A stretch of DNA of 38,815 nt, taken from the IMG/VR virus record IMGVR_UViG_3300022919_000008, positions 1 to 38,815 of that record. One strand, 5' to 3'. Shown one piece after another: positions 15,626 through 27,714 of the stretch; position 1 is the stretch's first letter, and each line of letters begins with the position of its first letter. A program made the translations under genes and the position numbers. The notes beneath the pieces were generated by a model, which was given only the letters and a program-made list of their open reading frames with translations, ran no database searches and was not told the DNA's origin. This DNA comes from a virus.

Positions 15626-15655
15626 TTGTGTAATTAAAAAATAGTATTATATTTG
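15626..15655 (+). promoter_or_regulatory. strong promoter of the early small-gene operon
   Basis: TTG (15626-15628), 19 nt, TATATTTG (15648-15655): a textbook Bacteroidetes promoter. Forty bases upstream lies TGTTAAAGTTTA (15583-15594), part of a box repeated at 20684 and 29101. It drives the gene set starting at 15686. Confidence 0.75.
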
Positions 15656-23234: not shown

Positions 23235-23242
23235 TATATTTG
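23235..23242 (+). promoter_or_regulatory. -7 element of the helicase leader RNA
   Basis: TATATTTG, about 105 bases before the helicase ATG. No TTG lies at the usual distance, so the promoter is weaker by consensus than the matching one at 25218-25247. Its position relative to the kissing-loop RNA is the same in both. Confidence 0.45.
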
Positions 23243-23246
23243 AGAA

Positions 23247-23336
23247 AATCGCAAACCACTACTTGCGAGAAGATATTTAGACAACGTCTAATCTAAAAGG
23301 CTCTTATGATTGTAGTGGATCATAGGGGCTTTTTTA
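23247..23336 (+). ncRNA. kissing-loop leader RNA A, upstream of the helicase
   Basis: Three hairpins occur in 90 bases. Hairpin 1 is TCGCAA/TTGCGA (23249-23254/23263-23268) with loop ACCACTAC. Hairpin 2 is TTAGAC-AAC-GTCTAA (23277-23291). Hairpin 3 is a 16-bp stem with three G-U pairs (23295-23310/23319-23334) with loop TGTAGTGG and a T run. Loop 1 CCACTAC (23256-23262) is the exact complement of loop 3 GTAGTGG (23312-23318), so a kissing pseudoknot is predicted. The ATG of the helicase follows at 23347. RNA B (25252-25345) has the same plan with different sequence. No known family is recognised. Confidence 0.7.
23295..23336 (+). terminator. terminator-like hairpin of leader RNA A
   Basis: A 16-bp stem followed by T residues ends 11 bases before the helicase start codon. 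As placed, it would reduce read-through into the helicase unless the structure is altered, so it may act as an attenuator. Confidence 0.7.
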
Positions 23337-23346
23337 TTTATACAAT

Positions 23347-24981
23347 ATGCAATTAAGATACTATCAAACAGATATGGTTAACTCTATATTTGAAGCCGAA
23401 AAAGCACATAAATCGGTTTTATGTCAATCTGCTACCGGATCAGGCAAAACGGTAATCATGTCTTTTTTTATTAAAGAATGGCTTAATCGTAATCCTGGAC
23501 GCAAGGTCCTTGTTTCGGTCCATCGTGACGAATTGGTAAGCCAAACTTCTGAAACACTCGCTAAACTCGGGATACTAAACGACAAAATTACTGCTAAATC
23601 AAAACCGGACTTTAGTAATAATACATTTGTTGGAATGACGCAGACAATACATTCACGAAAAATTAAACTTGATATTGGTTTATTTATTATAGATGAAGCA
23701 CATGAACAGGTTCATGTAAAAACGTTTCATTTATTCGATAACGCGTTTAGGACCGGATTTACAGCAACTCCTTCACTAAATAAACGCGTCACATATTATG
23801 AATGCGAACATTGTAATAAGAGATTTAAAACACGTGAAGTTTGTTGTTATAAGGACCATGCTATAAAATGGAGCGCACCGGTAACCATGTCAGAAACTTA
23901 CGATACTGTTATTGTTGGAATTCCTATTCGGGTCCTGATTGATGAAGGTTCTTTAGTCGATGAAATTATTTTTGACTACGATTACTATTCAGAATTAAAA
24001 TCGAAAGGCGATGATGATTTTGACGAAAACGAAATTGCAGAAGAAAGTATAAAGCACGATAAAAACGTTTTAGATGAATATGTAGAAAAAGCAATCGGTA
24101 AAAAGACAATGATTTTTACAGCTTCAACAAAACAAAATACTTCTTTGGTCCAAACATTTACTGAGGCAGGACACAAAATACAATCTTATGATTCTGTAAA
24201 CAATGAAGTTTCAGAACGTAAAACAACGGTCAAATGGTTCAAAGAAACGGACGGTGCAATACTTGTGAGTACCGGAACTTTTACTACCGGATTCGACGTT
24301 AAAGAAGTAGAATGTATAATTGTAAACCGTCCGACTAAATCATTATCATTGTGGCATCAAATTATAGGGAGGGGCGCAAGACCGAGCGACTTAATTTTTA
24401 AAGATAATTTTATTGTAATTGATTTAGGTGGAAATGTAAAAAGATTGGGAAAGTGGTCTGATCAATTAGACTGGGAAGATATTTTTTATAATGGAGTAGT
24501 CAAGGCTAAACAGAAAAAAGAAACGCTTGTACAATGCGAAAAATGCTGTTACAATTGGCTTGGTTCTAATAAAGATGAATGCCCTGATTGCGGACACGTT
24601 AACACGGTCCAGTTATCCATACGTGAACCACGTAGTGATGAAGACCAAGAACTAGATGTTGTGGATAAAAAAACAGTCGCTTTACAAACAATACCTTTGC
24701 CAAATGGAAAAAAAGTTGCTGAGTTTGTCGTTAGGACCACGAATGACAAGAAGGATTATTATCGCATCTTAATTGAAAAATATATTGATCTATGGAAATT
24801 GTACAGAGTTACAAAAGAAATATATTTAGAACGAATTCGGACCGGATATTTAAAAAAACGCATTCAAGAATACCTTAAAAAAAATTACGGATACGTCAAT
24901 ATGATTCGAAACGGTGTTCCTCGTACCTATTCATACCTTCAGGAAAAGATAGAAAGTAAATTAAAAGCCATTTTCTCGTGA
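23347..24981 (+). CDS. SF2 DEAD/DEAH-box helicase with zinc clusters
   Basis: 544 residues. Motif I is ATGSGKT (~29-35), motif II DEAH (~116-119), motif III-like FTATP (~138-142), and motif VI HQIIGRGAR in the second lobe. A Cys-rich insert after FTATP (CEHC...CC...H, ~153-171) and a second zinc-ribbon-like cluster near 396-416 (CEKC...CPDCGH) are extra. This type of phage helicase is usually part of the replication module, unwinding DNA near the origin or during recombination. It is the first gene after leader RNA A and is followed by a strong terminator. Confidence 0.93.
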   Translation: MQLRYYQTDMVNSIFEAEKAHKSVLCQSATGSGKTVIMSFFIKEWLNRNPGRKVLVSVHRDELVSQTSETLAKLGILNDKITAKSKPDFSNNTFVGMTQTIHSRKIKLDIGLFIIDEAHEQVHVKTFHLFDNAFRTGFTATPSLNKRVTYYECEHCNKRFKTREVCCYKDHAIKWSAPVTMSETYDTVIVGIPIRVLIDEGSLVDEIIFDYDYYSELKSKGDDDFDENEIAEESIKHDKNVLDEYVEKAIGKKTMIFTASTKQNTSLVQTFTEAGHKIQSYDSVNNEVSERKTTVKWFKETDGAILVSTGTFTTGFDVKEVECIIVNRPTKSLSLWHQIIGRGARPSDLIFKDNFIVIDLGGNVKRLGKWSDQLDWEDIFYNGVVKAKQKKETLVQCEKCCYNWLGSNKDECPDCGHVNTVQLSIREPRSDEDQELDVVDKKTVALQTIPLPNGKKVAEFVVRTTNDKKDYYRILIEKYIDLWKLYRVTKEIYLERIRTGYLKKRIQEYLKKNYGYVNMIRNGVPRTYSYLQEKIESKLKAIFS

Positions 24982-24989
24982 TTTATCTT

Positions 24990-25025
24990 AAAACCTTAAC
25001 TTATAAATAGTTAAGGTTTTTTTAT
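24990..25025 (+). terminator. intrinsic terminator after the helicase
   Basis: AAAACCTTAAC (24990-25000) and GTTAAGGTTTT (25010-25020) form a perfect 11-bp stem with a 9-nt loop, followed by a T run. Confidence 0.92.
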
Positions 25026-25217
25026 TTGTATTTACTTACAAAAAACCGTGACACATCGACCAAAAAAGTACTTTATACTTACTATATAAAAAACGAAACC
25101 ACTAAATAAAAAAGTTTTTGCAAAGGGTGAAAAATATAAAGATACGTCACTTTTCTTCGTTAACCCTCTATTTTATTGGGGGTAACAGAGTGACACATCT
25201 TTTTTTATATAAAACTG
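25026..25217 (+). other. gene-free AT-rich repeat region; candidate origin or operator
   Basis: No gene is seen between the helicase terminator and the primase promoter. GTGACACATC occurs twice as a direct repeat (25048-25057 and 25190-25199), with a further ACGTCAC in between (~25144-25151). AGGGT/ACCCT and GTTAACCC/GGGGTAAC arms form imperfect inverted repeats near 25127-25186. Runs of A and T make it easily melted. Lying between helicase and primase genes, it is a natural place for a replication origin or regulator sites. This is inference. Confidence 0.35.
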
Positions 25218-25247
25218 TTGTGTATTAATAAATAATAACTATATTTG
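25218..25247 (+). promoter_or_regulatory. promoter of leader RNA B and the primase-helicase
   Basis: TTG (25218-25220), 19 nt, TATATTTG (25240-25247): an ideal Bacteroidetes promoter, about 120 bases before the primase-helicase ATG. Confidence 0.78.
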
Positions 25248-25251
25248 TCTT

Positions 25252-25345
25252 GTGGTTGGCTTCTCACATTATACCAACTAAAGAAATTACACAGCTCCTA
25301 TAAGGAAAAACGAAGTGAGAAGCGTTTTGAATTATGGGAGTTTTT
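25252..25345 (+). ncRNA. kissing-loop leader RNA B, upstream of the primase-helicase
   Basis: Hairpin 1 is TGGTTGG/CCAACTA (25253-25259/25274-25280, one G-U) with a 14-nt loop beginning CTTCTCAC (25260-25267). The terminator-like 3' stem is AGCTCCTATAA/TTATGGGAGTT (25293-25303/25332-25342). Inside it, a 6-bp stem AAAACG/CGTTTT (25307-25312/25323-25328) displays loop AAGTGAGAAG, whose GTGAGAAG (25315-25322) is the exact 8-base complement of CTTCTCAC. The plan matches RNA A although the sequences are unrelated, which supports a selected architecture. The ATG of the primase-helicase follows at 25366. Confidence 0.7.
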
Positions 25346-25350
25346 GTTTT
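25293..25350 (+). terminator. terminator-like hairpin of leader RNA B
   Basis: An 11-bp outer stem is followed by TTTTTGTTTTT (25341-25351), ending about 15 bases before the primase-helicase ATG. This is the same geometry as RNA A. It may act as an attenuator. Confidence 0.65.
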
Positions 25351-25365
25351 TAAACCATTTTTACT

Positions 25366-27714
25366 ATGCCAATAATATCAATTTTTAAAAAGATAACAGA
25401 TGTTAACAATCCTTTCAATAAAGATGTTAGCTATGCTTTAAAAAGAATTCAAGAAGGTAAATCAAAAGATTTTGTTGAACAATTACGTTTAATGAATCCA
25501 GAAGATTATGCAAAAAATAAATCAAAGCTACCTGTAGTTTGTTTTAATGGCAAATTCAAAAGTAGATCAATAACCGGATTGATTGAACATTCTGGATTAA
25601 TTATTTTAGACTTTGATAAATTCAAAACCAAAGACGAAGCAATTGAATTCAAGAACTCTATTTTAAGTGATGAATACATATATTCAGTTTGGATTTCTCC
25701 TTCAGCATTAGGTGTAAAAATATTAGTTAAAATACCAGGCATTACAGAAAATCACAAAGGATATTTTCAATCTTTAAAAAAATACTTTAATCATCCTAAT
25801 TGGGATGATTCAGGAAGTGATGTAAGTAGGACCTGTTTTGAAAGCTACGACCCCGATATTTATATAAATACTGAAAGTTCAAAGTGGACAGAATTAGAAG
25901 AACCTGAAATTGAAGAAATAGGAACTTATGAGCCTATTGTAAGAATGACTTCATCAAATCAGATCGTTGAAAAATTATTGGTTTGGTGGACAAAAAAATA
26001 CGGAATGAATAAAGGTTCAAAAAACAATAATCTTCATAAGCTTTCATCCGCATTCAATGACTTTTCTATTGATTACAATGATGCACTTTCAGAGTGTATG
26101 AAGTACGATGAAGGAGGTAAACAAAAAGAAATTGAATCTTTGGTACGTTCTGCTTATAAAAGACCTTCTGCAGGAAAAGCATTTGAAGATACTTCCCAAA
26201 AAGAAAAGATTGAAAAGATGGTCCGGTCCGGTAAATCAGTAAAGGATATTGAAAAAGTTTATAAAGATGTTGATATTTCCAGAATAAAAGAAACTTTAGA
26301 TATTGACGAATTTTGGTTTTATAATGATAAAGGGAAAGTTGTTCTTTCAACTCATAAGTTTAAATTTTGGTTAGAGCAAAATAATTTTTTCAAATACTAT
26401 CCTTCAGAGCAAAGTAATACTTTTACATTCATAAAAAAGGATCAGAACTTACTTGAAGAAACAAACGAAAAAAGAATAAAAGATTATGTTTTAAAGAACA
26501 TATTAGAACGCTCTAACATTGGGTATGGACCCTACGATTACATGGCTTCAAACAGCGGTTATTTTAAACCTGATTTTCTTTCAATGTTAGACACTACAGA
26601 AGTAGAAATAAAAGAAGATACATCAACTGAATGCTATTTGTATTTCAAAAATTGTGTTGTAAAAGTTACTGCTGATAAAATAGAAAAAATTGATTATTTG
26701 GATCTTGATGGTTATGTATGGAGAAGGCAAATAATTGACAGAAATTATGAAACATTTGATCATCACGAATCAGAGTTCAGGACCTACTTATGGCTTGCAT
26801 CTGGTAAAGATGTGCAAAAGTATAATTCTCTAAAAAGCGTTATTGGATATTTGCTTCACTCATTCAAAACGAGCGCAAACAATAAAGCGATTATTTTTAA
26901 TGATGAAACTATTTCAGAGAACCCAAACGGTGGATCTGGTAAGGGTATTTTTTGGAATGGATTAAAAAACATGAAAAAAGTTTCCAGAATAGACGGCAAA
27001 ATGTTTGAACCAACAAAAACATTTCCTTATCAAACTGTAAGTACTGATACTCAAATTTTGGTTTTCGATGATGTTAAAAAGAATTTCAACTTTGAGAATC
27101 TGTTCAGTTTAATTACTGAAGGAATTACACTTGAATACAAAGGACAGGATGCAATCAATATTCCGGTGGAAAAGTCGCCAAAAATTTTGATTACAACAAA
27201 TTACACTGTTGGTGGTATTGGAGGATCTTTTGAGCGTAGAAAGTTTGAAGTGGAAATGTCAAGTTATTTTTCGCACAAACACACACCATTAGATGAATTT
27301 GGGCATATGCTTTATTCTGATTGGGACCAAAAAGAATGGTTACGTTTTGATAACTTTATGATTAATTGCGAACAATATTATCTAAAAAACGGATTAGTAA
27401 AACATAATTTCAATAATCTTGAAGTTAGAAAATTTATTAAAGAAACTTCTTATGAATTTTACGAATGGAGTTCGGACCGTGAAAATTTGCCTCATAATTT
27501 TAGAATTGATAAAACTGAGTATTTTACAAAATTCTGTAATGAGTACCAAGATTTTAAGAAGTTTCTATCTCAAAGAAAGTTCACACAATGGCTTGAATCT
27601 TACGCTAAATACTATAACCTTAAATATATATCAGGCAGAACCAACACAACAAGATGGATAGACTTTGAGGATCCAACACAACCAAGAGAAAACGACAACG
27701 ATATTACTTTTTAA
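25366..27714 (+). CDS. primase-helicase (BT4734/VirE-N-like plus P-loop helicase)
   Basis: 782 residues. The N-terminal third (ITGLIEHSGLIILDFDK near 67-83; then VWISPSALGVKILVKI) matches the BT4734/VirE N-terminal primase-like fold, with an acidic D-F-D motif at ~81-83. A middle region (VEKLLVWW...NNNLHKLSSAFNDF...DALSEC) resembles primase C-terminal modules. The C-terminal half is an SF3-like ATPase: ENPNGGSGKG (~517-527), ILVFDDVKK (~564-572) and ITTNYTVGG (sensor-like, ~607-615). Such proteins prime and unwind phage DNA. It is the only primase recognised, and no DNA polymerase was found. Confidence 0.87.
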   Translation: MPIISIFKKITDVNNPFNKDVSYALKRIQEGKSKDFVEQLRLMNPEDYAKNKSKLPVVCFNGKFKSRSITGLIEHSGLIILDFDKFKTKDEAIEFKNSILSDEYIYSVWISPSALGVKILVKIPGITENHKGYFQSLKKYFNHPNWDDSGSDVSRTCFESYDPDIYINTESSKWTELEEPEIEEIGTYEPIVRMTSSNQIVEKLLVWWTKKYGMNKGSKNNNLHKLSSAFNDFSIDYNDALSECMKYDEGGKQKEIESLVRSAYKRPSAGKAFEDTSQKEKIEKMVRSGKSVKDIEKVYKDVDISRIKETLDIDEFWFYNDKGKVVLSTHKFKFWLEQNNFFKYYPSEQSNTFTFIKKDQNLLEETNEKRIKDYVLKNILERSNIGYGPYDYMASNSGYFKPDFLSMLDTTEVEIKEDTSTECYLYFKNCVVKVTADKIEKIDYLDLDGYVWRRQIIDRNYETFDHHESEFRTYLWLASGKDVQKYNSLKSVIGYLLHSFKTSANNKAIIFNDETISENPNGGSGKGIFWNGLKNMKKVSRIDGKMFEPTKTFPYQTVSTDTQILVFDDVKKNFNFENLFSLITEGITLEYKGQDAINIPVEKSPKILITTNYTVGGIGGSFERRKFEVEMSSYFSHKHTPLDEFGHMLYSDWDQKEWLRFDNFMINCEQYYLKNGLVKHNFNNLEVRKFIKETSYEFYEWSSDRENLPHNFRIDKTEYFTKFCNEYQDFKKFLSQRKFTQWLESYAKYYNLKYISGRTNTTRWIDFEDPTQPRENDNDITF

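Follow-up and report, generated by a model that had tools for sequence, protein, structure and literature searches.

The replication gene behind the CI RNA of phage P4 encodes the primase-helicase α. Replication control in ColE1 involves 7-nt kissing loops between RNAI and RNAII (with Rop), and put of phage HK022 is a promoter-proximal, two-hairpin phage RNA that acts in cis on termination and, to our knowledge, has no complementarity between its loops. We know of almost no cis-regulatory RNAs in phages of the Bacteroidetes. By pairing with seqA on its upstream side and seqC on its downstream side, both in the same transcript, CI stops the replication genes; IsrK, for its part, has its own readthrough mRNA as a target in trans (PMC4825925). 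In antisense systems the U-turn motif YUNR speeds the pairing of loops (PMC4485353). The consensus for flavobacterial sigma-A is TAnnTTTG at −12 to −5 (PMC9723704). Here we describe leader RNAs in a stretch of viral DNA of 38,815 nt (IMG/VR record IMGVR_UViG_3300022919_000008), which we refer to as the window, and in related phages.

Two leaders of like architecture in the window

The original prediction held that the primase gene is preceded by an ideal promoter, a 5′ hairpin (HP1) with a 14-nt loop and a terminator-like hairpin that carries, in its own loop, an exact 8-base complement of the start of the HP1 loop. The coordinates of all these features proved correct (Table 1): the promoter box agrees with the flavobacterial consensus, the loops of HP1 and the terminator are perfectly complementary, and the 11-bp outer stem and the run of T residues are present in the sequence. 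The leader (25240–25351) would give rise to a transcript of about 97 nt, in which HP1 is followed by a short linker and then by a strong terminator-type hairpin that stops 24 nt 5′ of the primase ATG. Because the −7 box fits the sigma-A consensus at −12 to −5, +1 should lie at about 25252, and HP1 would therefore begin at nucleotide 1 or 2 of the RNA. RNA folding recovered both hairpins, and the fold was better than those of shuffled sequences (z of −2.2 to −2.8). When the HP1 loop was shuffled, at least 8 complementary bases were obtained in 735 of 200,000 trials. The complement itself lies on the same strand as the leader; one promoter-like match on the minus strand was seen at 25554, inside the primase open reading frame.

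Table 1. Features of the primase and helicase leaders and their units (window coordinates)
Feature	Position	Strand	Detail	Basis
Promoter, primase leader	25218–25247	+	−33 TTG at 25218; −7 box TATATTTG at 25240–25247	sequence
HP1, 5′ hairpin, primase leader	25253–25280	+	stem 25253–25259/25274–25280, 7 bp; loop 14 nt	fold, stem covariation
Kissing segment 1, CTTCTCAC	25260–25267	+	opens HP1 loop; complement of 25315–25322	
Linker, AAGAAATTACAC	25281–25292	+		alignments
Terminator hairpin, primase leader	25293–25342	+	outer stem 25293–25303/25332–25342, 11 bp; 3×3 internal loop GGA/GAA; inner stem 25307–25312/25323–25328, 6 bp; apical loop AAGTGAGAAG	fold, covariation
Kissing segment 2, GTGAGAAG	25315–25322	+	in terminator loop; first letters are U-turn motif GUNR	
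T tract 3′ of terminator stem	25341–25351	+		sequence
Primase gene (putatively regulated)	25366–27714	+	BT4734-like N-terminal domain (PF08800); PHROG primase/helicase	
−7 box, helicase leader promoter	23235–23242	+	TATATTTG	sequence
HP1, helicase leader	23249–23268	+	loop code CCACTAC, 23256–23262	
HP2, additional linker hairpin, helicase leader	23276–23291	+		
Terminator hairpin, helicase leader	23295–23335	+	loop code GTAGTGG, 23312–23318	
ResIII-type DNA helicase gene (putatively regulated)	23347–24981	+		
Ordinary terminator closing helicase unit	24990–25026	+	12-bp hairpin and T run	sequence, inverted repeat

An RNA of the same architecture and unrelated sequence had been predicted before the helicase gene. 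When the entire window was searched promoter-first on both strands, exactly two elements were returned, the helicase and primase leaders, and none on the minus strand, whereas 1,100 shuffled regions gave two matches with lower scores. The two leaders are alike in architecture and different in sequence. The helicase unit has a terminator of its own, and thus the primase gene appears to be a separate transcription unit that depends on its own promoter. The window promoters at 15626, 20708, 28696 and 29122, which lie shortly before genes, have plain, unstructured leaders of 20–36 nt.

We also note some other features of these regions. Repeats of GTGACACATC, possible origin iterons, occur 5′ of the primase promoter at 25048–25057 and 25190–25199, as do repeats of TAGGTACACATT 5′ of a primase promoter in a related locus (L017:3827–3850). 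A long non-coding stretch elsewhere in the window carries, after a promoter-like site at 549, a tRNA (724–797) and an Rfam DUF805b RNA (RF02914, 40 bits; 1080–1111), the latter directly 5′ of an open reading frame at 1126.

A class of leaders with compensated loop pairing

We collected primase homologues from viral contigs and read the regions upstream of them. As had been predicted for related phages, the architecture was conserved and the loop sequences changed: the kissing pair is CTCTTCAC/GTGAAGAG in L005, CCTTCAC/GTGAAGG in L003 and L042, CCTCTGAC/GTCAGAGG in L006, CATCTAC/GTAGATG in L008, CTTCCAC/GTGGAAG in L011 and ACATAGGA/TCCTATGT in L076. Changes in kissing segment 1 of the window leader are compensated in L005, L213, L140, L056 and L103. 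A search of both strands of 7.1 Mb of fetched DNA yielded 41 distinct elements with a promoter and an ATG, belonging to 34 groups and bearing 30 loop codes; the element finder picks perfect complements, and this set is biased accordingly. Thus, the predicted class of phage-encoded RNAs before replication genes was borne out, with its architecture kept and its loops changed and compensated.

We define the class by a TAnnTTTG promoter, a hairpin that lies at most a few nucleotides from +1, and a terminator at most about 35 nt from the ATG whose loop is complementary to the HP1 loop over at least 7 nt; the window element has all of these. HP1 begins at +1 to +3 across the class, its stem being short or imperfect in some elements (L006, L211), and the kiss comprises 7–8 bp. 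The terminator ends 7–32 nt (median 18) 5′ of the ATG in the 41 elements and is strong, with a median hairpin energy of −17.8 kcal/mol and at least six T residues in eight in 36 of 41. Of the 26 terminators with an internal loop, 18 have GA on both sides of it (6.6% expected by chance). The purine-rich strand of the kiss starts with GUNR in 37 of 41 elements, against a background of 13%; in place of the YUNR of U-turn kissing RNAs, the class thus keeps the UNR core and has G as the first base. Invariant positions are otherwise few: the GU..AC ends of the kiss, the GA of the internal loop and fragments of the linker, which ends in an ATTAYAC-like sequence in the aligned relatives. A metabolite riboswitch or aptamer was rejected, there being no conserved core sequence among the elements. 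A search of Rfam, including C4 antisense RNA and riboswitches, gave no family match for the elements (window and 12 loci at the gathering threshold; leaders at E up to 5), and in the literature searched we came across no account of such an arrangement.

Most elements precede genes for replication and recombination. The genes behind them encode primase, ResIII-type helicase, PIF1/Dda-like helicase, replication-initiation proteins and a RecT-like protein, as well as a Dam-type methyltransferase, HNH and GIY-YIG endonucleases and a few unknown products. A homing-endonuclease or small open reading frame often comes first, between the leader and the replication gene. Several such frames lie between leader and primase gene and therefore look like insertions behind a primase leader; HNH-type or related small frames in this position were seen in L002, L009, L010, L032, L036–L039, L062 and L063. 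Among 74 primase loci with upstream sequence, a kissing leader stands directly before the gene in 13 (including L073–L075, L077 and L078), and a kissing leader followed by an inserted frame in 15. A different, sister leader is found in 32; L016 and L030 resemble sister variants by eye. Other relatives therefore have the sister leader at the very position of the kissing one, or an inserted homing-endonuclease or small frame that separates leader and primase. Among named phages, elemoE and elemoF of Flavobacterium sp. BAL314 have an element before the replication operon; scans of Leef_1, Panino, pippi8-1, phi17:1, Bacteroides phages and phi46:1 found no element with a promoter.

Only three analyses were free of selection for complementarity: two kissing-blind tests and a genome search with a covariance model. 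When leaders were selected solely by promoter, open reading frame and minimum-free-energy hairpins, loop matches of at least 7 nt were found in 7 of 30 cognate and 0 of 870 non-cognate pairings, and matches of at least 5 nt in 13 of 30 and 21 of 870, respectively. When they were selected by promoter, terminator and open reading frame, and a match was sought in the 5′ region, at least 7 nt matched in 24 of 82 leaders, as compared with 69 of 6,642 non-cognate combinations (1%). The covariance model (R1) was derived from six elements, with the kiss pairs left out, and searched against 301 Flavobacteriaceae genomes. Its top match (L331, E = 2.4e-7) has a promoter, loops AGCCTTCGAC and GTCGAAGGCT that pair over 10 nt, and a replication-initiation gene 13 nt 3′ of the stem. 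Five weaker matches and the best phylum-wide match (L337) were without kiss and promoter and without such a gene behind the stem. In the fetched loci, R1 likewise recovered elements that precede other genes. An origin of the elements in the hosts was rejected, L331, which lies on a 1.9-kb, possibly viral contig, being the one convincing match in the 301 genomes.

A promoter-free scan of 2.2 Mb gave 35 matches at a score of at least 20, of which 33 lay no more than 80 nt from an ATG and 27 had a TAnnTTTG box; 0.6 Mb of shuffled sequence gave three, none with a promoter. The kiss helix was paired in 100% of cells in alignments of helicase, rep and primase leaders (A3), of a subclass with HP2 (A2) and of a primase subclass (A4). 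Because the alignments include elements found by complementarity, this figure is partly the result of selection, which does not apply to the kiss pairs that were changed on both sides (three in A3, three in A2 and four in A4). For the whole structure, 30–42 cells showed double changes against 11–15 in shuffles, and its score was higher than that of any of the 500 shuffles or any slid control. In one case a single change is compensated: the PIF1 leaders of L010 (TGTCTAC/GTAGACA) and L237 (CGTCTAC/GTAGACG) precede proteins that are 96% identical. To judge from these sequence comparisons, a class of phage leader RNAs with compensated, element-specific loop pairing is real and, apparently, undescribed. 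Alignment-based RNA discovery would tend to miss such a class, since evolution keeps the tertiary pairing and not the sequence; a search based on complementarity finds it readily.

A candidate attenuator and its alternatives

We consider it probable, at roughly 60%, that the primase leader is a cis-acting transcription attenuator in which loop–loop kissing sets the level of readthrough, and the class would then be a variant of transcription attenuators built on such kissing. It is the position of the elements and their T tracts that point to attenuation of transcription in cis. RNA polymerase would tend to halt at the terminator, leaving the short RNA. As the terminator hairpin emerges, the HP1 loop may dock on its apical loop, helped by the U-turn motif, and docking would alter the timely closure of the hairpin base and so the amount of primase mRNA. 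No length rule that would make kiss and terminator mutually exclusive emerged: helix length and effective linker were uncorrelated (rho = −0.04), and only the length of the HP1 loop correlated with that of the raw linker (rho = −0.48, p = 0.006).

As to direction, we lean, tentatively, toward a kiss that favors readthrough, because a strong terminator directly precedes an essential gene and because a primase leader that has lost HP1 (L210:7325–7421) has a weakened tail: it retains the terminator loop AAGTCAGAGAG, and its T tract is interrupted (GGGCTATTTTT). This leader is the one case among the relatives examined of uncompensated loss of a loop partner, an outcome that would have counted against the original prediction. 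Since it keeps its terminator without HP1, the kiss is evidently not indispensable everywhere. Codes differ among the elements of one phage, with cross-pairing of 2–4 nt and one case of 6. The codes being private, each gene would be tuned separately; candidate toggles, if there are any, are a phage protein, a host factor, Mg2+ and terminated copies of the RNA. The attenuation of two replication genes that had been proposed is in keeping with the attenuator-like placement, the class being wider than those two genes; the suggested shared antiterminator found no support in our results, in which most loops are private to one element. Attenuation by kissing would provide a concrete, testable mechanism for setting primase and helicase levels in such phages.

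Alternatively, the terminated leader might be a trans-acting RNA. With the multiplication of phage DNA, copies of it would pair with leaders of the same code, whether nascent or read through, and hold down expression of the replication genes, so as to control copy number or exclude a like phage; P4 CI and IsrK are precedents for such an RNA (PMC4825925). The reading is possible, if distinctly less probable. Private codes would fit the specificity that it calls for. The sister leaders speak for it. They have the core GGGGTTGTCGGAGGCATCCAC..AAAAGG-loop-CCTTTCCCC, and wherever an open reading frame was assigned, the gene behind them is of primase type; L013–L065 and L248–L330 (for example, L017:3909–4001) show a core of GTTGTCGGAGGCATCCAC-N-TAAAAGG and a terminator with a variable loop. 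Nearly all of their 13 loop codes have a complement just after the T tract (cognate matches of 5–9 nt) and 11 of 13 a second complementary site near the ATG; the terminated form would lack both sites. The sister class was absent from the 301 Flavobacteriaceae genomes and had no Rfam match. Bridging the two classes, two kissing elements (L219:4776–4872 and L141:1260–1353) carry the HP1 code a third time, as an exact 7-nt copy that lies exactly 2 nt 5′ of the ATG. However, the kissing class has both loops in one RNA, which should pair in cis, and 39 of the 41 elements show no ATG-proximal copy; the two that do have it at an identical position and are not above the count in shifted controls. No downstream copy of the loop code was found in the window primase leader. 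A still more tentative version is that the leaders are self-specific riboregulators, each replication gene having a private code and terminated copies acting in trans on transcripts of the same gene. If so, a phage would count its own genomes and could exclude relatives with the same code.

To return to the attenuator that we prefer, a hairpin this near the ATG could instead affect translation. The kiss might mainly control translation or RNA stability, locking the readthrough mRNA or the short RNA at both ends, with the hairpin before the ATG modulating access of ribosomes: HP1 at +1 to +3 and the second hairpin cap both ends, the stem ends a median of 18 nt from the ATG, and homing endonuclease genes of T4 are under translational control by RNA structures (PMC2988022). 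We think this unlikely, as a strong T tract directly after the stem is a hallmark of terminators that would be superfluous in a translational element, and the hairpin base falls, for the most part, outside the start region. Even less probable is a role of the RNA in replication itself, as a primer or as an origin RNA beside an iteron-bearing origin, such as the GTGACACATC repeats (25048 and 25190) and the iteron-like repeats in L017 might indicate: leaders of this class are also found before helicase, PIF1, RecT-like and other genes, they are tied to ATGs, and inspection of the window's helicase leader by eye revealed no comparable repeats. Finally, chance, that is, terminators and hairpins with accidentally matching loops, was rejected: a single 8-nt match alone would have a probability of about 0.4%, but the covariation, the kissing-blind comparisons of cognate and non-cognate loops and the prospective match L331 all contradict it.

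Comparison with known regulatory RNAs

The CI RNA of P4 and the c4-type RNAs of P1 and P7 are likewise phage leader RNAs 5′ of replication genes, with complementary segments in one transcript and premature termination (PMC4825925). In those systems a processed, antisense-like fragment is the active RNA and acts in trans, whereas here the loop of a 5′ hairpin kisses the loop of an intrinsic terminator; partner sites on both sides of the regulatory loop, as in c4, were absent from the window primase leader and found only in L219 and L141. In the case of IsrK of Gifsy-1, as proposed for the leaders, a single phage promoter yields a short, terminated RNA as well as a readthrough mRNA (PMC4825925), but IsrK acts in trans on a structured ribosome-binding site, and kissing of a 5′ hairpin with a terminator loop is unreported for it. 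In T4-type homing endonuclease genes, hairpins lie beside the ribosome-binding site, that of seg43 directly 5′ of it, and neither a kissing partner nor a terminator is described there (PMC2988022).

Loop–loop recognition with a U-turn (PMC4485353), a decision at a terminator and control of replication genes are also features of the pT181 and pIP501 attenuators and U-turn antisense systems; these employ an RNA from the opposite strand and YUNR, whereas the present leaders have both loops on one strand and GUNR. ColE1 similarly uses two opposite-strand RNAs, which control a primer, whereas the pairing described here is intramolecular and precedes protein genes. Unlike put, which acts on distant terminators, the leaders have a terminator as their second hairpin. 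The class supplies natural sets of near-orthogonal kissing codes, and cultured hosts exist (Flavobacterium sp. BAL314 with elemoE and elemoF).
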